Positions 1-32,239 of a DNA stretch of 32,239 nt are shown here, piece by piece. The notes beneath the pieces were generated by a model. That model was not told the DNA's origin and did no database searches. It saw nothing but the letters and a program-made list of their open reading frames with translations. Location of the stretch: IMG/VR virus record IMGVR_UViG_3300034111_000735, positions 1-32,239 of that record; one strand, given 5' to 3'. This DNA is from a virus. Each line of letters starts with the position of its first letter. Positions within the stretch are counted from its first letter, which is position 1. The position numbers and the translations under genes were made by a program.

Positions 1-16
1 TTAGCGGTACCGCTAA
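1..16. repeat. 16-bp perfect palindrome at the window edge
   Basis: TTAGCGGTACCGCTAA is its own reverse complement and contains a KpnI-type GGTACC core. It lies inside the fibre coding sequence and recurs at 31896-31911. The window begins exactly on its first base. It may be a coding coincidence, or a point where assembly stopped. Confidence 0.8.
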
Positions 17-344
17 AATTATTTGTTAAAATTACGGAATTACTTGCCCTAATATATCCACGGAAATTTAATGCTTCAAACCCAATAAACACCCAATTGT
101 TTGTCGTGCCATCGCTTAAATTTAATCTAAATGCAACTAATGGGTCAATTGGTTTGTTAAATTGTGCAAACAAAGTACCCTCCGTCTGCCCAATCAAACT
201 ACTTATCCCCGTCTTAAAACAAGCATCCGCAACCCTTGTGGCACTTGCTGAGGTTGTTGGTATGTAGGATGTGGCATATGATGAATTGGCTTCAAGTTGC
301 AACCCATAAAACAAAATACTCTTTGCCGTTCCGCTTGATGAATT
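1..344. repeat. Left copy of inexact terminal direct repeat (fibre lectin domain)
   Basis: This block aligns without gaps to 31896-32239. I count 17 mismatches in 344 positions (67, 73, 90, 104, 136-138, 140, 143, 144, 177, 198-200, 204, 207, 217). Positions 1-66 and 218-344 are identical. The block encodes part of a LamG-like domain in the fibre gene, so it is either the overlap of a circular contig with strain variation or a true paralogous repeat. Confidence 0.95.
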
Positions 345-1373
345 AATAACACCCGCAACAATGCCCGAGCCGACACTTGCCCCAAATGTTTGTGTAAATG
401 TAAATCGTTGCCACTCGGTTGTAACTGTTAAATCACTTGAATAATAATCTGCGATATTGGCGTGTGTACATTTCAATCTAAATTGTTGTGTACCGCTTGT
501 AACTTTTGCGTAAACGCTGACTGTGTGCGTTTGACTTTCATAAGTTCCTCCAACTGGTTCCTCCAATCTTGCGGTTGCATTTGCATCAAAACTTAAAAGG
601 TCTGCATTTTGCGTTCCATCGGGTGAAATTGCACTATTGCCCGTAACTGTTAAATCATAAGTATTCCAATAAGCATTGTCTAACTCTTGGCTATAATTTA
701 ACAAATTCGTACTCTGTTTCTCCAACAACAAACTCGGACACCCCCCGCCCCCATTTTGGTAGGTTAGGCGTGGTACATTTAAGCGGTCGGTTGTGGGGAA
801 ATAGGGTTTGGCGGTTGAGCCAATGTTTAGTTGTGCGCCCCACGCCAAAACTGCGGACGCTTGCCCGCTTGTATTTCTTTTGATTGCAATTGCTACACAA
901 TTATTTGCGTTTACTTCAAACCTTTGCCAATCGCCCGTCAAAGTGACATCATAATTTGCAGTCCCTGAAAGTTCTAAAGTAATTGTTTTGCCTATGTTTG
1001 TACTTTCGCCTTTTAAGTAAACAGAGAATATTGCAATTGGATTTGATGCAATGAAATTATATATCGCTTGTCCCGTACCTGAATAATTCAAGCGGTCTGC
1101 CGTTGTTGTTCCGTTTGGCGCGGTTGCTACATTGGAATCAACAGAAGCCCCTACATCTTTTGCCCAATATGCGTTTGAAAAATCCTCGCTATACTGCAAC
1201 AAATTCCACGGCGTAACCTCAACCAATCCCGCCGAATTTACTCGCGTTCCGTTGGATGCACGGGTGAATGACAAATCGCCGCTGCCGTCAGTAGGTACAG
1301 GAGAATAGACTACATCTTCTTTGTATCCGCTAGGAATCATCACTAGCGATGCTTGACTCAATAGATTGCTCAT
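1..1373 (-). CDS. Receptor-binding tail fibre, N-terminal part (runs off the left edge)
   Basis: The reading frame opens with ATG at 1373 and stays open to base 1 (457 codons). The N-terminus has the phage fibre motif LSFTRASNGTRVNSAGLVE (about residues 34-52). Two tandem carbohydrate-binding-like repeats follow, each beginning NLLxYS and containing a W and a D-G-T...AD-L segment (about residues 57-190 and 223-365). A LamG/concanavalin-like segment starts near residue 385 (SLIGQTEGTLFAQF). The likely role is host surface glycan recognition at the tail tip. The start overlaps the upstream 48-codon gene by ATGA. If the window is circular, the gene continues in frame at 31895-31667 to give a 533-residue protein. 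Base and codon use differ from the neighbouring tail genes, suggesting exchange. Confidence 0.8.
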   Translation of the reverse strand, partial: MSNLLSQASLVMIPSGYKEDVVYSPVPTDGSGDLSFTRASNGTRVNSAGLVEVTPWNLLQYSEDFSNAYWAKDVGASVDSNVATAPNGTTTADRLNYSGTGQAIYNFIASNPIAIFSVYLKGESTNIGKTITLELSGTANYDVTLTGDWQRFEVNANNCVAIAIKRNTSGQASAVLAWGAQLNIGSTAKPYFPTTDRLNVPRLTYQNGGGGCPSLLLEKQSTNLLNYSQELDNAYWNTYDLTVTGNSAISPDGTQNADLLSFDANATARLEEPVGGTYESQTHTVSVYAKVTSGTQQFRLKCTHANIADYYSSDLTVTTEWQRFTFTQTFGASVGSGIVAGVINSSSGTAKSILFYGLQLEANSSYATSYIPTTSASATRVADACFKTGISSLIGQTEGTLFAQFNKPIDPLVAFRLNLSDGTTNNWVFIGFEALNFRGYIRASNSVILTNNFSGTA

Positions 1374-1520: not shown

Positions 1521-1781
1521 TTAGTAGCCGATTACAGAGCCAGAAGATATCACAAAGCCTGTGATTTTTGACGCGCCACCTGCAGGTAGATACGCACCTT
1601 GTTGAAGAGTAACGCCACTCAAACCACGAGCAGAAAGTACGTTTGTACCATCGACAGAGAATGAAGTGAAAATCGTGTCTTCTTGTACTACTAGTGTGCT
1701 ATATGCTACACTTGTCACGGTTGATGCGCTATGGTATTTGAAACCATCGCCACCTGCCATAATGCTTGTTGAATTGCTCAT
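1521..1781 (-). CDS. Small Gly/Ser/Thr-rich virion-like protein (86 aa)
   Basis: The start is taken as ATG at 1781 because it overlaps the preceding stop as ATGA. A longer frame to 1820 would run into the upstream gene. The product (MSNSTSIMAGGDGFKYHSA...) is beta-rich in appearance, with many Ser, Thr, Gly and Val residues and no Cys, ending GSVIGY. Composition and position between tail tube-like and fibre genes suggest a small structural or decoration protein. I do not recognise a named family. Confidence 0.65.
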   Translation of the reverse strand: MSNSTSIMAGGDGFKYHSASTVTSVAYSTLVVQEDTIFTSFSVDGTNVLSARGLSGVTLQQGAYLPAGGASKITGFVISSGSVIGY

Positions 1782-2023
1782 ATATTTTTGCTTAGATTGT
1801 AGAGTTTGTTCTTTATACAAATAGCACTTTCTAGATAAGTGACTCTTTTTAAATATGCGTAGTAGATTGGTAGATAATCGTAGTATCCTTCTTGAGGTAC
1901 ATCGTATTGTTTTGAGTCAAGACTAGGTACATACGTTTCGTTGTTTACTACTACTTCATTCTCTTTTGATACAAGAGTAGGTACATACGTCTTTGAGATT
2001 GTGACGACGTTATGTTGGTTCAT
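1778..2023 (-). CDS. Hypothetical protein with internal ETYVPSLDSK-type repeat (81 aa)
   Basis: The N-terminal half holds two near-identical units, KTYVPTLVSKENEV and ETYVPSLDSKQYDV. A Tyr-rich stretch (YYDYLPIYYAYLKR) follows. The start overlaps the end of the 113-aa gene by 14 nt and the stop overlaps the next start as ATGA. It probably belongs to the virion gene group. The function is unknown to me. Confidence 0.65.
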   Translation of the reverse strand: MNQHNVVTISKTYVPTLVSKENEVVVNNETYVPSLDSKQYDVPQEGYYDYLPIYYAYLKRVTYLESAICIKNKLYNLSKNI

Positions 2024-2974: not shown

Positions 2975-3904
2975 TTAGAGGGTGAAATATACAACTTCTG
3001 CAGGGTAAGCAACTTGAACACCATACTTAAAAGTAGTACGGAAACGAACCTCGTCGTTGTCCTCAGAGTACCACAATTTGTATGATTCTTCTTCGTTAGC
3101 CAAATCAGTACCTACAAAGAAGTTGCTCAAAGAACCAGCAACGATTTTGCTAGTACCACTCAAACCACCTACAGCAATCAACTTCATATTTGTGCCGGGG
3201 TAAATCATTTCCATCGCTTCGCTTGCGTCTACTGCGTAGTGGAACAAGTTAGCGTTCTTCAAGTTAACCAACATCAATTTGAAAGCATCAACACCGATGA
3301 AGCAAACCAAGTCACTCTTAGTAGCAACACGAGCAGGAATGTTCGCATAAACTTGGTCTAAGATATCGTCGATGTTTGCGCTAGTGATTGAAGTGAAAGC
3401 AGTTGGGGCAGAGTTAGCCAATGTTGGAGAAGCACCAGAGATGATTTTGTTGAAACCATCGAAGCGATTCAAGTTAGGGTTTCCACTAGTAGTGTCACCT
3501 TGCCACATAGCAATCTCGATGTTCTCAGCAATAACTGCAGATTTCTCACCTCCGATTTGCTCTTCAAAAGGAATCATAGTAGGAGAACCAGCCATGATTT
3601 GAGTTTGCATCCACTTTGCTTCAAGAGTCTTAGGACACAAAGTCTCTTCAACTTTAACAGCACCTACGGTGATGTTTCTTTGAGTGAAAGTAGTAGCACC
3701 ACTTGGATTGTAACCACAGCCATCGGCTTGGAAGAAAACGGTAGAAGCCAACAAGTTCAAAGAAGCAGATGACTTAACACCTACTTGTACTTGACCGGCG
3801 CTTTGCAAGGTTGATGCGGTTTTAGAACCGAACAACGCTTTTACCAACAAGTCAGTTGACTGCTCATTGGTGTAATTGTTCAAGGAAGATACAACGAATG
3901 ACAT
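2975..3904 (-). CDS. Major capsid protein, HK97-fold type (309 aa)
   Basis: A 309-residue protein without long coiled coils or membrane segments, lying directly downstream of a protease-like and a scaffold-like gene, which is the classic maturation cassette. Visible segments typical of phage coat proteins include EEQIGGEKSAVIAENIE, then an NLNRFDGF region and the C-terminal KYGVQVAYPAEVVYF strand. The lack of a long N-terminal delta domain agrees with a separate scaffold gene. Fold assignment is from context and length rather than from a diagnostic motif. Confidence 0.75.
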   Translation of the reverse strand: MSFVVSSLNNYTNEQSTDLLVKALFGSKTASTLQSAGQVQVGVKSSASLNLLASTVFFQADGCGYNPSGATTFTQRNITVGAVKVEETLCPKTLEAKWMQTQIMAGSPTMIPFEEQIGGEKSAVIAENIEIAMWQGDTTSGNPNLNRFDGFNKIISGASPTLANSAPTAFTSITSANIDDILDQVYANIPARVATKSDLVCFIGVDAFKLMLVNLKNANLFHYAVDASEAMEMIYPGTNMKLIAVGGLSGTSKIVAGSLSNFFVGTDLANEEESYKLWYSEDNDEVRFRTTFKYGVQVAYPAEVVYFTL

Positions 3905-3929
3905 AGTATTTTTTTGTTTTTTATTTGGT

Positions 3930-4481
3930 TTATTTCTTTAATGCGTTTGCAAATTTCTTCAAGTTCTCGAATTGAGACTCAACTTTGCTAGGGGTGTGAG
4001 GCTTCAAAGTAGGCTCGTCGCTAGGTAAGTCAATCATTTTCTCAACCAACTCTACTACTTTAGACATAGCCTCTTTGTGAGATACTCTCTCGCTTACAAG
4101 AGACTCGATAGAAGCAGTCAATTGAGCAATCTTAGACTCAAGACTTTCTACTACTTCGTTGAAGTGAGATACGGTAGCGAACTCTTCTGCTTCAACAGAG
4201 ATTTCTACTTCGGGGGTTTCCATTTCTGGCTTAACGATTTCAGTCACAACGCCATCAAGAGTAGTTACAAGAGTACCATCTTCAATTTCGTGTGTTGCGT
4301 CGGGTGCAAGAATATCGCCCTCAGCAGTCTCTACCATTACGATAGTACCTACTGACAACTCACCTTCCCATTTTACGATAGTACCATCTTTCAACATTGC
4401 TGTCTCGAAAGCGATACTTTTTTCTTCTTCAAATCCCAACAAAGTGCGGACTTGTTTTAGAGTTTCTTTTGCGTTCATCAT
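3930..4481 (-). CDS. Scaffold-like capsid assembly protein (183 aa)
   Basis: The start is placed at the ATGATG around 4478-4481. The longer frame to 4538 would overlap the protease gene for no reason. The N-terminal half carries a repeat-like beta domain with DGTIVKWEG, ATHEIEDGTLVTTLDG and similar turns. The second half is a predicted coiled coil rich in Glu, Ser and Leu (residues about 110-165), ending in a basic KKFANALKK tail. A coiled coil plus basic tail between protease and capsid genes fits an internal scaffold that is removed during maturation. This is inference from architecture and position. Confidence 0.6.
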   Translation of the reverse strand: MMNAKETLKQVRTLLGFEEEKSIAFETAMLKDGTIVKWEGELSVGTIVMVETAEGDILAPDATHEIEDGTLVTTLDGVVTEIVKPEMETPEVEISVEAEEFATVSHFNEVVESLESKIAQLTASIESLVSERVSHKEAMSKVVELVEKMIDLPSDEPTLKPHTPSKVESQFENLKKFANALKK

Positions 4482-10888: not shown

Positions 10889-11445
10889 TATTTCTTCAAC
10901 ATCTTTGCAATGTATCGATAGTGAAACTCTTGAATGTTGTAACCCCCACAAGGAACACAACAAGTATAGAAGAAGCGACCATCTGCAAGTTTTGTGTTCA
11001 CTTCAAAACCTTTACCGCCAATTTGCGTCGTCACATATTCTGCCATATCGTCTGCAGTCAAGAACTTCTCAAGTGCGCTTTCTAGTTTTGCGATGCTAAT
11101 AGCGCGAACTGATTCGATGTGACTTGCAAAGGTTTTGTCGTAGCGATTTACTAAACCAAATACAAAGTCTTGCAATCTTTGACGACGACCGTATGTCATA
11201 GAGTAGGCGTACTTGTTGTACCAATCGTGACCTTTTGCATTTTCTACGTTTGCCAATTCTTCGTTGCATCCGTTCATAATTAAGATTGTGCGATAGACTG
11301 CGTAGTCGTTAATCTCGTTAGGGAACTTAGTTCTGAAGTCGTTGTACACGTTCAAAATTTGAGCGATTCTTTCTACTTCTTTTTGAACAAGGATTTCGAT
11401 TTGCTCGTTGTAAGATTCTCTGATTGTTTCGATTGCGTTTTTCAT
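10888..11445 (-). CDS. Accessory protein with its own promoter and terminator (185 aa)
   Basis: The ATG at 11445 is chosen because the longer frame to 11496 would include the promoter -7 box at 11467-11474. The product (MKNAIETIRESYNEQ...) is mostly helical in the N-terminal two-thirds. A C-terminal segment has a CCVPCGGYN cluster that could bind metal or form disulfides. It is flanked by a promoter and a terminator inside the tail gene cluster, so it looks like an independently expressed accessory gene, not a tail component. The family is not recognised. Confidence 0.7.
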   Translation of the reverse strand: MKNAIETIRESYNEQIEILVQKEVERIAQILNVYNDFRTKFPNEINDYAVYRTILIMNGCNEELANVENAKGHDWYNKYAYSMTYGRRQRLQDFVFGLVNRYDKTFASHIESVRAISIAKLESALEKFLTADDMAEYVTTQIGGKGFEVNTKLADGRFFYTCCVPCGGYNIQEFHYRYIAKMLKK

Positions 11446-11466
11446 AGTTCGTTTGATTTGATATGT

Positions 11467-11497
11467 CAAAACTACAACTATTCTTGATATACGCAAT
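11467..11497 (-). promoter_or_regulatory. Bacteroidetes-type promoter for the 185-aa accessory gene
   Basis: -7 box TAGTTTTG (complement of 11467-11474), 19-nt spacer, then ATTG (complement of 11494-11497) at -33. This matches the TTTG/TTG-N19-TAnnTTTG consensus of Bacteroidetes primary sigma factor promoters. The box ends 21 nt before the ATG. Upstream lies an A-tract and a TTTCAAAGTG stretch shared with the promoter at 23518. The rest of the 153-bp gap (11498-11650) holds only a weak TTATATG/CATATAA inverted repeat. Confidence 0.8.
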
Positions 11498-11650
11498 ACA
11501 CTTTGAAACTTTTTTTTCTAAATCTTTTGTTTTCTTACAATTCTATGACAATTCACTCGTCACTCTTATTCGTAGATATGTGACTTATATGTATCTAAAA
11601 GCATATAAATTGTGCGATTTATGACACGTTATATGTTCAAGCGTATACTC

Positions 11651-21976: not shown

Positions 21977-22177
21977 TTATTCTTTTGTTTGAATTGAATA
22001 TCTGCCAAATCCTTCTGTCTCATCACACACGATGTCAAGACCTTCTTTGTGTCGAAGCGTGTGAATAAGCGCGGCGAGTCGAAACGAGCCATACAAATTC
22101 AAAGCGTCGATAGGTGTGATTGACTTACCATTCATCAAATGAGTCTTCACTTTTTTCAATTGCGATTCTTTTTTCAT
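21977..22177 (-). CDS. Small HTH protein (66 aa)
   Basis: The sequence KTHLMNGKSITPIDALNLYGSFRLAALIHTLRHKEG is the pattern of the phage HTH_39-type helix-turn-helix domain (K..L..G..IT...AL..YG..RL...I..LR..G). It ends in GFGRYSIQTKE, a likely wing strand. Probably a small DNA-binding regulator. It is coupled to the dCMP deaminase gene by ATGA and is followed by the promoter for the replication operon. Confidence 0.8.
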   Translation of the reverse strand: MKKESQLKKVKTHLMNGKSITPIDALNLYGSFRLAALIHTLRHKEGLDIVCDETEGFGRYSIQTKE

Positions 22178-22575
22178 AGTTGTCTATAATTTATTTTTAG
22201 TTTGTCAAGTCCTTGCGTATCTCGATATAGTTTATCGAATATGACGCATTTTAAGCCACTCTGTTTGATTATCTTAGAGCATTGCATACAAGGTGACATC
22301 GTGACGTACATAGTTGCACCTTGAGTGTTTAAACCCGCTTTTAAGATTGCATTCATTTCCGCGTGAATTACTTCATCTTTCGTCACGTCGTTCTCTTCGC
22401 ACTCGTTACAAAATCCACTAGGTGTACCATTGTACCCGTAAGCGACTATATTTCTATCTTTCACGATGACTGCGCCTACTTTTGCACGATTGCACCTAGA
22501 TAGTTTAGAGACTACGTGCGCAATGTTCATATACATCACGTCGAATTGGTCACTCCTGCTCGTCATATTTTCCAC
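22174..22575 (-). CDS. Deoxycytidylate deaminase (133 aa)
   Basis: Zinc-dependent dCMP deaminase family: HAEMNAI (H71, catalytic E73) and PCMQC (95-99), which bind the zinc. GYNGTPSGF near 47-55 is the usual substrate loop. It converts dCMP to dUMP, raising the dTTP precursor pool during phage replication. Two starts are possible (MENMTSR or MTSR, three codons later). It overlaps the 30-codon gene upstream by 26 nt. Confidence 0.92.
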   Translation of the reverse strand: MENMTSRSDQFDVMYMNIAHVVSKLSRCNRAKVGAVIVKDRNIVAYGYNGTPSGFCNECEENDVTKDEVIHAEMNAILKAGLNTQGATMYVTMSPCMQCSKIIKQSGLKCVIFDKLYRDTQGLDKLKINYRQL

Positions 22576-23236: not shown

Positions 23237-23494
23237 TTAAAATTCGTATTCAGTTAAAAAATCAACAAATTGACCGGGACAGATTTGACAAAACTTGTCG
23301 TCGCTTACACACACATAATTTTTTTGTGCCAATTGAGACAAATATCCTTTTACTTGTTTCTCGTTGAAATCTGTTACAAACTCCATAACTTCTTTGAAGT
23401 AAGTGAAGTCACCACCAGTGTACTTGTCAGATGCTTTTACAATAGATTGCAAAACTGAGATTTCGTTGTCGTTTAGATTTGTGTAGTTGTTCAT
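23237..23494 (-). CDS. Hypothetical winged-helix-like protein (85 aa)
   Basis: The ATG at 23494 is chosen because the longer frame to 23551 spans the promoter at 23518. The product (MNNYTNLNDNEISVLQSIVKA) continues with FNEKQVKGYLSQLAQKNYVCVSD, the helix-strand pattern of a small winged helix, and has a CQIC pair near the end. A DNA-binding regulator is possible, by pattern only. Confidence 0.6.
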   Translation of the reverse strand: MNNYTNLNDNEISVLQSIVKASDKYTGGDFTYFKEVMEFVTDFNEKQVKGYLSQLAQKNYVCVSDDKFCQICPGQFVDFLTEYEF

Positions 23495-23517
23495 ATCGTT
23501 TGTGTTATTTGATGTAG

Positions 23518-23548
23518 CAAAGATACTACTAGCAAACATATGCGCAAG
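23518..23548 (-). promoter_or_regulatory. Bacteroidetes-type promoter upstream of the 85-aa gene
   Basis: CTTG (complement of 23545-23548), 19 nt, TATCTTTG (complement of 23518-23525). The box ends 23 nt before the ATG. The upstream A-run, TTTCAAAGTG and TTGCGCATAT stretches match those at the promoter at 11467. Confidence 0.8.
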
Positions 23549-23581
23549 CACTTTGAAATCTTTTTTTCTATTTATTTTGTT

Positions 23582-24214
23582 TTATTGCAATTCTATGACA
23601 TTTCTCAACATATGACCTGCGTAGTATAACTTCTCATCTATCAAGTCTTTTACGTCGTCAAGCGTGATATTCACTACGTGCTTCTTGTGTGAGTCGGGCA
23701 TTCTAGGGTCATACGAAACAAAGAACGCATTCTCACAAGCACTAGCAATCATACCCATTTGCATTTGCCAGTAGTACTCGCTATGTTGAGACTTCAAGTC
23801 TTCGTTTGTTTTGATTGAGAAATTGCGTAGATGAATACCGCTATTGAATGGACATTTAATCTCAACGATAAAGTCATCACCTAGCGCGTCGGGAGAATAA
23901 CCTCCAAAGTCACCGTATTCGATAAAGACGAAAGTCTCACCTCCGTAGTAAGTAGCGAGAGAGTTGAAAGGGTCAAACGCTTCATACGCTTGCTTCTCGT
24001 GTTCTTTGCCCCAATCTAACGCACGACCATAGATTTCGTTTCGTTGGTTTGTGAGAATCTCTGCACCTTTCTCGTAGATGAAAGTCTTTGCTGTCTCGCT
24101 TAAGTACTCCGATTTGTTTCTCGGAGTACCCATCAATTTATGAATTTGTGAAGCCGTGAAACGCGTTCGTCTCAACTCAAGCCATTGCTCTTCACTTTGT
24201 GTAGTCGTAACCAT
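23582..24214 (-). CDS. YqaJ/lambda exonuclease-family recombinase (210 aa)
   Basis: Start ATG 24214 (MVTTTQSEEQWLELRRTR). WLELRRTRFTASQIHKLMG at 11-29 is the family N-terminal motif. WGKEHE (68-73), SPDAL (107-111) and EIKCP (118-122) form the metal-dependent nuclease core. It resects double-stranded ends 5' to 3' to give single strands for the annealing protein encoded just upstream. About 10 nt separate it from the ERF gene. Together they form a Red-like recombination pair. Confidence 0.9.
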   Translation of the reverse strand: MVTTTQSEEQWLELRRTRFTASQIHKLMGTPRNKSEYLSETAKTFIYEKGAEILTNQRNEIYGRALDWGKEHEKQAYEAFDPFNSLATYYGGETFVFIEYGDFGGYSPDALGDDFIVEIKCPFNSGIHLRNFSIKTNEDLKSQHSEYYWQMQMGMIASACENAFFVSYDPRMPDSHKKHVVNITLDDVKDLIDEKLYYAGHMLRNVIELQ

Positions 24215-24224
24215 TCTCAATCAT

Positions 24225-24758
24225 TCATTTGACACTAGACAACAATTTGTAGTCAACTTCGCTCAATGTGTACTTTTGAGTGATGTCGCTAATTTTCCCG
24301 CCACGTTGAATGTGTTCTAACGCTTTCGCCCAATTAGGATGCTTAGGAGTGAGAGTTTCTTTTTGAGGTGCGCGACCCATTGCTTTCTCTCCGTCGTCAT
24401 CGTCGTCGATGTTGAGACCTAAGATTGCGCCTAGAGCGTAGCGACGTGCGTAAGTGATTGCGCTTCCCATTGCTTGAGGGTCGTTTTGTTTTGCAACTGG
24501 CATCTTGTACGACGCTTCAATCCACTCACCGCTCTCGCTATGTATTAAGAGAGTAGTCAACGCGTCGTCGTCTGGCAATTGAGCGAACGCAAGACCGCAA
24601 TCACTCAAAGGCTTTTGAATAGTATCTAAGATGTTCGCGAGTGATGCGTACTTAGATTTGAAAAATGGGTTGTTCGCTTCTTTCGACACCTTGCCGATTG
24701 TTGCTTGGAACTTGCACAACGCAAGCCCAATGTTCTTGATAGATTCACTTTTGTTCAT
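24225..24758 (-). CDS. erf: ERF-family single-strand annealing protein (177 aa)
   Basis: The ATG at 24758 directly follows the HTH stop at 24760. The longer frame to 24833 overlaps that gene. The motif FKSKYASLANILDTIQKPL (34-52) and the hallmark GSAITYARRYALGAILGL (98-115) define the ERF family, followed by an acidic DDDDDGEKA segment and a helical C-terminus. It anneals complementary single strands produced by the YqaJ nuclease, for repair, circularisation or recombination of phage DNA. Confidence 0.92.
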   Translation of the reverse strand: MNKSESIKNIGLALCKFQATIGKVSKEANNPFFKSKYASLANILDTIQKPLSDCGLAFAQLPDDDALTTLLIHSESGEWIEASYKMPVAKQNDPQAMGSAITYARRYALGAILGLNIDDDDDGEKAMGRAPQKETLTPKHPNWAKALEHIQRGGKISDITQKYTLSEVDYKLLSSVK

Positions 24759-24759
24759 A

Positions 24760-24951
24760 TTAGTTTTCGATTTGTTCAATGATTTCTTTTGCTGTCTTGA
24801 ATACCTTGACCGCCGTGGGGTGATACACGTCACCTTTCAAATACTTACGAATAGTAGGGAGAGAAAGACCTGTTCTCTCGTGAATAGTCTTTTGAAGACC
24901 GTGATAGTGTTTGTGTTTTAACTCTTCTTGGATTTGCTCTATGTTTGTCAT
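24760..24951 (-). CDS. Small HTH regulator (63 aa), probably leaderless
   Basis: TIHERTGLSLPTIRKYLKG (about 22-40) is a clear helix-turn-helix, followed by a short C-terminal helix (AVKVFKTAKEIIEQIEN). The ATG lies 6 nt after the -7 box of a perfect promoter, so the transcript probably starts at or next to the first codon. As the first gene of the recombination operon it may repress its own promoter. It has no dimerisation domain of the lambda-repressor type. Confidence 0.85.
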   Translation of the reverse strand: MTNIEQIQEELKHKHYHGLQKTIHERTGLSLPTIRKYLKGDVYHPTAVKVFKTAKEIIEQIEN

Positions 24952-31098: not shown

Positions 31099-31276
31099 CT
31101 AGTTTGTCGATTTTCTTCGCGTAGTAACGAATCGCAAACAAGCCCGAAACGATACCAACGATAGCCAAAATAAGAGAAAAAACAGGTTGCCAAGTGTTCG
31201 CAAAATGCAAGATAGTAGACGAGCAAGAAATACCCGTTGCGATGTTTGCGATTGTATCGTTCTCAAAGTGTTTCAT
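31085..31276 (-). CDS. Small membrane protein, holin candidate (63 aa)
   Basis: ATG 31276 shares a base with the previous stop (TAATG). Hydrophobic segments: IANIATGISCSSTILHFA (weak) and PVFSLILAIVGIVSGLFAIRYY (strong), then a charged KKIDKLDGKD tail. Short phage proteins of this layout near virion fibre genes are often holins. With the 54-aa protein it could form a holin pair. Assignment by topology only. Confidence 0.6.
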   Translation of the reverse strand: MKHFENDTIANIATGISCSSTILHFANTWQPVFSLILAIVGIVSGLFAIRYYAKKIDKLDGKD

Positions 31277-31662
31277 TATTTAACGCTTTCAATTTTAGGT
31301 TCGGGAAGTTTGCAGTATTCACTCTCGGGAAACTTTGCGCAAAAGGTTTTGAGATACAAAGAATCGTCACCGCTGAAAGTATGCACCCCGCACGGATTTG
31401 GGAACACCTCAAACGGGGCAAAACTTGCGGGGGGTTCTGAATAGAACAGAATGTCGACCGCCCACTTGTCGCTTTGCTTTGTGCATACGGGTTTGTCATC
31501 TTCCGTTTCCCACTCTAAACAAATAAACCCAATTTCAACAACTGCGCAATCTTTCCAAGTTGTCACGGTTTCACCGCTTGGGGTGGTTGTGGTTTGTTGT
31601 ATGTCTTTTTGAAGTATTGCCCATTCGGTAGGGATGAACTCGAATTTATTAAAGGATTTCAT
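31276..31662 (-). CDS. Hypothetical protein downstream of the fibre (128 aa)
   Basis: Starts MKSFNKFEFIPTEWAILQKD and contains CAVVEIGFICLEW, then WAVDILFYSEPPASFAPFEVFPNPCGVHTFSG and a C-terminal Cys pair (FCAKFPESEYC). Four base pairs separate it from the fibre stop. It may be a fibre-associated or chaperone protein by position. G+C-rich codons resemble those of the fibre gene rather than the portal, suggesting that the two moved together. Confidence 0.6.
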   Translation of the reverse strand: MKSFNKFEFIPTEWAILQKDIQQTTTTPSGETVTTWKDCAVVEIGFICLEWETEDDKPVCTKQSDKWAVDILFYSEPPASFAPFEVFPNPCGVHTFSGDDSLYLKTFCAKFPESEYCKLPEPKIESVK

Positions 31663-31666
31663 TGTG

Positions 31667-32239
31667 TTAAATTGTGGTTAGGGATGCCAATTCGGCGTTT
31701 GTTAGGCGGGTTTTAGATACCAAAATTTCTGCAATTTGACCAACTGCATAATTGTCGTCGCTTGGGTTTTCTCCGACATTAATTTGACTTAATGTACCAT
31801 TAAAAGTAAATGATGAAGAACCCGTGACAATTTGTGTTCCGTTATGGTAAATTGCATAATCACCACTTTTGTAAGCAATTGCAATCTTATTCACATTAGC
31901 GGTACCGCTAAAATTATTTGTTAAAATTACGGAATTACTTGCCCTAATATATCCACGGAAACTTAATCCTTCAAACCCAATAAATACCCAATTGTTTGCC
32001 GTGCCATCGCTTAAATTTAATCTAAATGCATTGACTGAATCAATTGGTTTGTTAAATTGTGCAAACAAAGTCCCCTCCGTCTGCCCAATCAACGAACTAA
32101 TGCCCGTCTTATAACAAGCATCCGCAACCCTTGTGGCACTTGCTGAGGTTGTTGGTATGTAGGATGTGGCATATGATGAATTGGCTTCAAGTTGCAACCC
32201 ATAAAACAAAATACTCTTTGCCGTTCCGCTTGATGAATT
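31667..32239 (-). CDS. Receptor-binding tail fibre, C-terminal part (enters from the right edge)
   Basis: Open from the window edge (in frame NSSSGTAKSILFYGLQLEA) to the stop at 31667, 190 residues. It holds the whole LamG-like domain: VADACYKTGISSLIGQTEG, WVFIGFEGLSFRGYI, KIAIAYKSGDYAIYHNG, INVGENPSDDNYAVGQIAEI and LTNAELASLTTI. Residues 1-114 repeat the left-end fibre with seven changes (for example F to Y, PLV to SVN, A to G). It is most likely the end of the same gene in a circular genome, or else a second tandem fibre gene. The C-terminal TNAEL motif is typical of LamG modules. Confidence 0.8.
   Translation of the reverse strand, partial: NSSSGTAKSILFYGLQLEANSSYATSYIPTTSASATRVADACYKTGISSLIGQTEGTLFAQFNKPIDSVNAFRLNLSDGTANNWVFIGFEGLSFRGYIRASNSVILTNNFSGTANVNKIAIAYKSGDYAIYHNGTQIVTGSSSFTFNGTLSQINVGENPSDDNYAVGQIAEILVSKTRLTNAELASLTTI
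31896..32239. repeat. Right copy of inexact terminal direct repeat
   Basis: Matches positions 1-344 with 17 substitutions and no gaps. The last 127 bases (32113-32239) are an exact copy of 218-344. The differences cluster between 67 and 217 of the left copy and change seven residues of the lectin domain. Confidence 0.95.

Follow-up and report, generated by a model that had tools for sequence, protein, structure and literature searches.

A circularly assembled tailed-phage genome opened within a fibre gene of shuffled modules

The window studied here is a whole stretch of viral DNA of 32,239 nucleotides (IMG/VR record IMGVR_UViG_3300034111_000735). It is best explained as the complete, circularly assembled genome of a tailed phage of about 31.9 kb, opened within its single fibre gene, whose modules have been shuffled and would be exchanged at conserved linkers by phage-encoded ERF and YqaJ proteins; we put the probability of this reading as a whole at roughly 0.78. 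The fibre is a clear case of the known shuffling of receptor-binding proteins, and its units and borders are unusually well delimited. Phages are hard to link to hosts from metagenomes, because their receptor-binding genes do not track the rest of the genome, and this group provides an example of unusual clarity, as one genome combines three units of exchange that have defined borders with candidate genes for their recombination.

Fibre architecture and two versions of the fibre end

When the ends of the window are joined (position 345 to 32239), the fibre reads through in frame to give 533 residues and the circle measures 31,895 bp, as originally predicted. In protein alignments, this fibre has the order C1-V1-C2-V2-C3-V3-C4, in which conserved linkers alternate with three hypervariable modules (Table 1). 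A 36-mer from linker C3 matched seven contigs in IMG/VR and led to the conserved islands; in the aligned fibre DNA of the relatives, islands of similarity are separated by stretches with none. Over 1653 pairs, mean pairwise identity is 83, 89 and 76% for C1, C2 and C3, and 24, 25 and 24% for V1, V2 and V3. AlphaFold predicts V1 and V2 as beta-sandwiches resembling tandem CBM22 domains, V3 as a concanavalin-A-like domain closest to CBM40, and the linkers at low confidence; the model of a 457-residue piece of the fibre has a low pTM (0.42), and single domains and disordered linkers are all that we take from it. In Pfam, V3 gave a sub-threshold match to Laminin_G_3. By these predicted folds, V1-V3 would be modules of the carbohydrate-binding type, and the product of the gene directly after the fibre, judged by its position, is a candidate fibre-assembly factor.

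Table 1. Coordinates of the fibre locus, of the two end copies and of the recombination genes in the window
Feature	Positions	Strand	Remarks
Allele A: last part of V2, linker C3, beginning of V3 (lectin module)	1-344	-	Repeats 31896-32239
Allele B: same segment, stays in frame up to the stop codon of the fibre	31896-32239	-	
Exact 127-base match, vertex where the assembly graph closes	218-344	-	Identical to 32113-32239
Right-hand copy of this 127-base match	32113-32239	-	Identical to 218-344
C1, conserved N-terminal part, residues 1-60	1194-1373	-	
V1, variable, predicted beta-sandwich, CBM22/CBM4_9-like	840-1193	-	
C2, conserved linker, residues 179-228	690-839	-	Mean 89% identity, 1653 pairs
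V2, variable, predicted beta-sandwich, CBM-like	306-689	-	
C3, conserved linker, residues 357-398	180-305	-	Holds 6 of the 17 A/B base differences
V3 start, lectin module, allele A, truncated where the window ends	3-179	-	
V3 complete, allele B, with conserved tail C4; concanavalin-A/laminin-G/CBM40-like predicted fold	31667-32074	-	
128-aa conserved gene directly after the fibre (31276 gene)	31276-31662	-	Transferred along with the fibre
99-aa conserved gene just before the fibre (1521 gene)	1521-1820	-	5' boundary of the cassette
ERF single-strand annealing recombinase	24225-24833	-	
YqaJ-type recombination exonuclease	23582-24220	-	

The two ends of the window carry copies of one segment, which we refer to as alleles A and B. 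As had been stated from the sequence before, they align without gaps over 344 bases with 17 mismatches (95.06% identity, E ~1e-155), which far exceeds a chance match, and the final 127 bases are exact; the left 66 bases are identical as well (1-66 and 31896-31961). No further near-copy of the segment was found anywhere in the window. The original prediction placed all 17 differences in the lectin domain, and this holds for 11 of them; the other six (217, 207, 204, 200, 199 and 198) lie in linker C3, where the differences start before they extend into the lectin module. Thirteen codons differ, seven of which alter a residue (F/Y, P/S, L/V, V/N, T/A, A/G and N/S), the number given before. The F/Y change falls in the conserved linker that precedes the lectin domain and the remaining six within the domain; in the structural model of a 190-residue piece, residues 68-70, 81 and 91 among the changed ones would lie in loops, and residue 93 would open a strand. 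Over the variable tract, dN is 0.097 and dS 0.217 (dN/dS ~0.45), with no sign of an excess of amino-acid changes or of diversifying selection between A and B. The 'receptor-binding variation' of the original prediction is deduced from the lectin fold, and a change of receptor may be involved.

The simplest reading is that both alleles probably coexist in one population. At most of the seven sites between 217 and 177, the A and B states occur at comparable frequency among the relatives, and both forms of the serine codon at 198-200, AGT and TCG, are frequent; the alleles therefore look like old standing variants that were reassorted by recombination. It is rather unlikely that they instead drifted apart in one lineage by plain point mutation. 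With just 17 differences and a dN/dS of ~0.45, such microdiversity would be unremarkable, but the states near the linker, including the serine codons that lie several steps apart, are common in other phages, and we would expect a genome-wide divergence of 17 per 217 bases to give two separate contigs rather than one. An exact 32-mer from the lectin module had no match in IMG/VR, and thus no sibling contig showing the continuation of allele A was found there.

Module exchange between phages

Not one of the 1653 pairs of fibres is alike (at least 80%) in V1, V2 and V3 together, whereas single modules are shared at 94-100%. For instance, V1 is 100% common to three relatives (L171, L173, L175) whose V2 and V3 are ~20% identical, V3 is identical in three others (L154, L155, L156) whose V1 is not, and L090 and L115 are 99% alike in V2 but not in either neighbouring module. 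Rank correlations among the identities of the three modules do not exceed 0.14, and on sequence comparison the parts of the fibre have different closest relatives, as is typical of modular receptor-binding proteins. The 35 borders of shared segments, observed in 28 pairs, fall within linkers (29) or no more than 45 nt from the edge of a module (6), and none lies in a module interior, although interiors make up 55% of the gene; these pairs overlap and are not independent, no formal P value is claimed, local alignments naturally extend into conserved linkers, and selection against broken modules would likewise leave interiors free of borders.

The cassette also travels as a whole. In eight relatives with portals of 24-28% identity, C2 is 82-98% and the protein of the 31276 gene 76-90% identical. 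Conversely, the relative G001 is more than 90% alike over most of the backbone, but has a wholly different fibre cassette. Judged by these alignments, modules have been swapped singly and independently between phages, including those with portals of only about 25% identity, and the whole fibre with its next gene moves between distantly related ones. As a separate observation, the unrelated cassette of G001 (locus L245, 4067-6259) includes a match to the arabinofuranosidase-B catalytic domain (PF09206).

Identity at fourfold-degenerate sites is 0.73 for C2, 0.69 for C3, 0.54 for C1 and 0.39 for the V modules; for portals, it is 0.34 in pairs less than 30% identical and 0.68 in pairs 95-100% identical. 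In C2 and C3, the similarity of distant phages thus reaches that seen elsewhere between near relatives. That C2 and C3 surpass C1 and the variable modules at these sites could also reflect, instead of recent exchange through general homology, a function of the linkers at the DNA or RNA level, for which a dedicated signal for recombination would be one example. We consider this improbable, since near-identical long segments that end in linkers indicate that exchange does occur, which would homogenize the linkers on its own, and neither a defined site nor a cognate enzyme was found.

Under exchange by general homology, the linkers would supply the homology, and recombination would most likely be carried out by the phage-encoded ERF/YqaJ pair. 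During phage growth, an Erf protein and its exonuclease are far more efficient than the RecA pathway in recombining DNA of 78% identity (PMC3945230), and the C2 and C3 DNA of the relatives is mostly 70-91% identical to that of the window, which by analogy makes ERF/YqaJ-driven exchange at the linkers plausible. New module combinations would arise in this way, and with them the bound surface glycans may change. With its exchange units, borders and recombination genes, this group allows a direct test of whether fibre modules are swapped at dedicated homology ports. A more far-reaching idea, which we consider doubtful, is that of a cross-genus pool of interchangeable modules, in which the linkers are selected as DNA-level recombination ports, perhaps with the help of homing endonucleases that some members carry behind the fibre; if true, the phages of one habitat would use a combinatorial library of glycan-binding domains.

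An extra ORF between the fibre and the 31276 gene is found in 4 of 62 relatives (L153, L088, L170 and L174). It carries HNH_3 and NUMOD4 domains in L153 (4491-5066) and has 137 residues and no Pfam match in the other three. In a further relative (L135, ~3600-4270), a NUMOD3 reading frame interrupts the 31276 region. We speculate that homing-type genes behind the fibre may aid its spread.

Several known systems share features with this one. The hypervariable segments of T-even gp38 are loops within one small adhesin, whereas here whole predicted domains of ~115-130 residues stand between linkers of 40-60 residues. The gp38 segments lie between glycine-rich motifs and set receptor use (Trojet 2011 in PMC12529663), and the likeness, which is one of layout, is that conserved motifs alternate with hypervariable segments. 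Recent exchange of receptor-binding-protein domains in tail fibres, at times across family borders, has been described (Smug et al. 2023, PMC10684548). The exchange of domains is the same here, but concerns three modules that follow one another in a single gene and are exchanged one at a time; their linkers are alike even at synonymous sites, and the group is uncultured and found in metagenomes only. In the Alteromonas phages A5, V22 and P24, a fibre-chaperone module is common to distantly related phages (PMC10579305), just as the fibre and the gene behind it are here. There, the module moves as a whole and its second gene is a chaperone; here, single domains inside the fibre move as well, and the 31276 gene is, by its position, a candidate for such a role. 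Finally, marine metaviromic islands hold host-recognition genes, often carbohydrate-binding or lectin-like, that vary between otherwise near-identical phages, as the fibre does in this group; they were described from read recruitment, and their exchange units and borders are not known to have been resolved to linkers (PMC3909814).

Closure of the genome

The original prediction further explained the 127-base match by closure of a circle at an assembler k-mer of k=127. A query with the large terminase found 531 relatives in IMG/VR, and ten relatives of 29.6-32.1 kb, among them G001, G002 and G005-G009, were read whole. Exact terminal direct repeats of 127 bp are present in four of the ten (G002, G006, G008 and G009), and the starting gene differs among the contigs of the relatives. 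Permuted starts and terminal repeats together mean that these genomes form closed circles in the assembly graph, where 'circular' covers circular as well as circularly permuted genomes, which contigs cannot separate. The ends of G005 share a direct repeat of 97 bp and those of G001 one of 133 bp with one mismatch, past which the exact run is 126; this run and one of 108 in G007 deviate from 127 and count against the account. G002, most of whose proteins are 82-98% alike to those of the window (95% for the portal and 97% for the capsid), crosses the junction of the window with one uninterrupted fibre between the 1521 and 31276 genes. There is thus good support for the prediction that the window is a circular genome closed at k=127.

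The same gene order is intact at other loci. All 78 relatives that span the neighbourhood have one fibre gene, followed by the 31276 gene, and two fibre genes were found in none of them. This makes it very improbable that the end copies are paralogues, with either a real tandem pair of fibre genes or a spare cassette for the 3' end, as the presence of two non-identical copies in one contig might suggest. The closest relative (G002/L115) is among the 78, the right copy is followed immediately by the conserved next gene, and at 533 residues the joined fibre just fits the complete fibres of the group, which mostly have 534-593.

Why the contig should start in one allele and end in the other is illustrated by G007. 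Its ends overlap imperfectly (1-436 and 31492-31927; 17 mismatches in 436 bp, the longest exact run being the 108 bases mentioned above) in a gene adjoining the terminase rather than in the fibre. Strain differences make de Bruijn assemblers break or choose paths (PMC11443906), and since G007 has the same pattern in another gene, such imperfect ends are a consequence of strain variation during assembly. The idea that the overlap is peculiar to the fibre was dropped; the overlap itself is an ordinary assembly effect, and on its own says nothing about receptors. In the window, the paths of A and B would both lead into the shared 127-mer, from which a single path leaves, so that the contig starts in A and ends in B. 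On the left side, the exact run is internal (218-344) and does not begin at base 1. Contigs like G007 are probably complete genomes that tests for exact end repeats miss, and imperfect end overlaps in virus contigs should be taken as a warning that a complete genome may have been overlooked by such filters.

One detail is not predicted by a simple fork and counts against it. Base 1 of the window, where allele A starts, is the exact edge of the 16-bp palindrome TTAGCGGTACCGCTAA (1-16 and 31896-31911), the longest perfect palindrome in the window, while among the 482 locus ends that were tested, no second one abuts a palindrome of at least 10 bp. A read path that folds back would leave the normal path exactly at this edge, and our guess is hairpin drop-out or fold-back. 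The palindrome was also considered as an inversion site and rejected, as it has no second site. The notion that the fibre end is altered on purpose, by a diversity-generating retroelement or by site-specific inversion, can draw on this palindrome and on the clustering of the differences in the lectin-like domain, yet it is hardly credible: reverse transcriptase is absent both among the window proteins scanned and in 22 relatives (PF00078), the differing sites show no adenine bias (T5 A5 G4 C3 in copy A) or adenine-specific change relative to a template, no template repeat of the segment exists elsewhere in the window, the palindrome has only its allelic counterpart and is absent from the other fetched loci, and no recombinase family was matched among the window proteins scanned.

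Cultured relatives, host and other genome features

The nearest cultured relatives are the Nonlabens phages P12024S and P12024L (Inhavirus), with 28% identity in the portal and 31% in the fibre. They likewise carry ERF and YqaJ, and have portal, fibre and recombination genes in the same order and direction. They differ in being distant, with genomes of 35.7 kb and no match at the DNA level. None of 50,697 phage records was hit when bases 1-25000 were compared with them by megablast; with this and a portal identity of 28%, the window falls short of genus-level genome similarity to P12024S. A scan of genome collections for a prophage or host returned one short bin contig as its sole match.

The host is likely a member of the Bacteroidota. 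The motif TTG-N19-TAnnTTTG, which we take to be the Bacteroidota-type promoter consensus, occurs five times, always on the coding strand, where 0.86 occurrences are expected; this lends modest support to such a host. The motif is present in both copies of a repeat of 118-120 bp (76% identical, minus strand, 11437-11554 and 23486-23604), which lie upstream of two genes and have matches in G001-G005. This repeat is probably a shared promoter or leader region. Finally, the window encodes a TET-associated glycosyltransferase (PF20691; 18780-19712) and a dCMP deaminase (22174-22575), from whose presence it appears possible that the phage has modified DNA bases.
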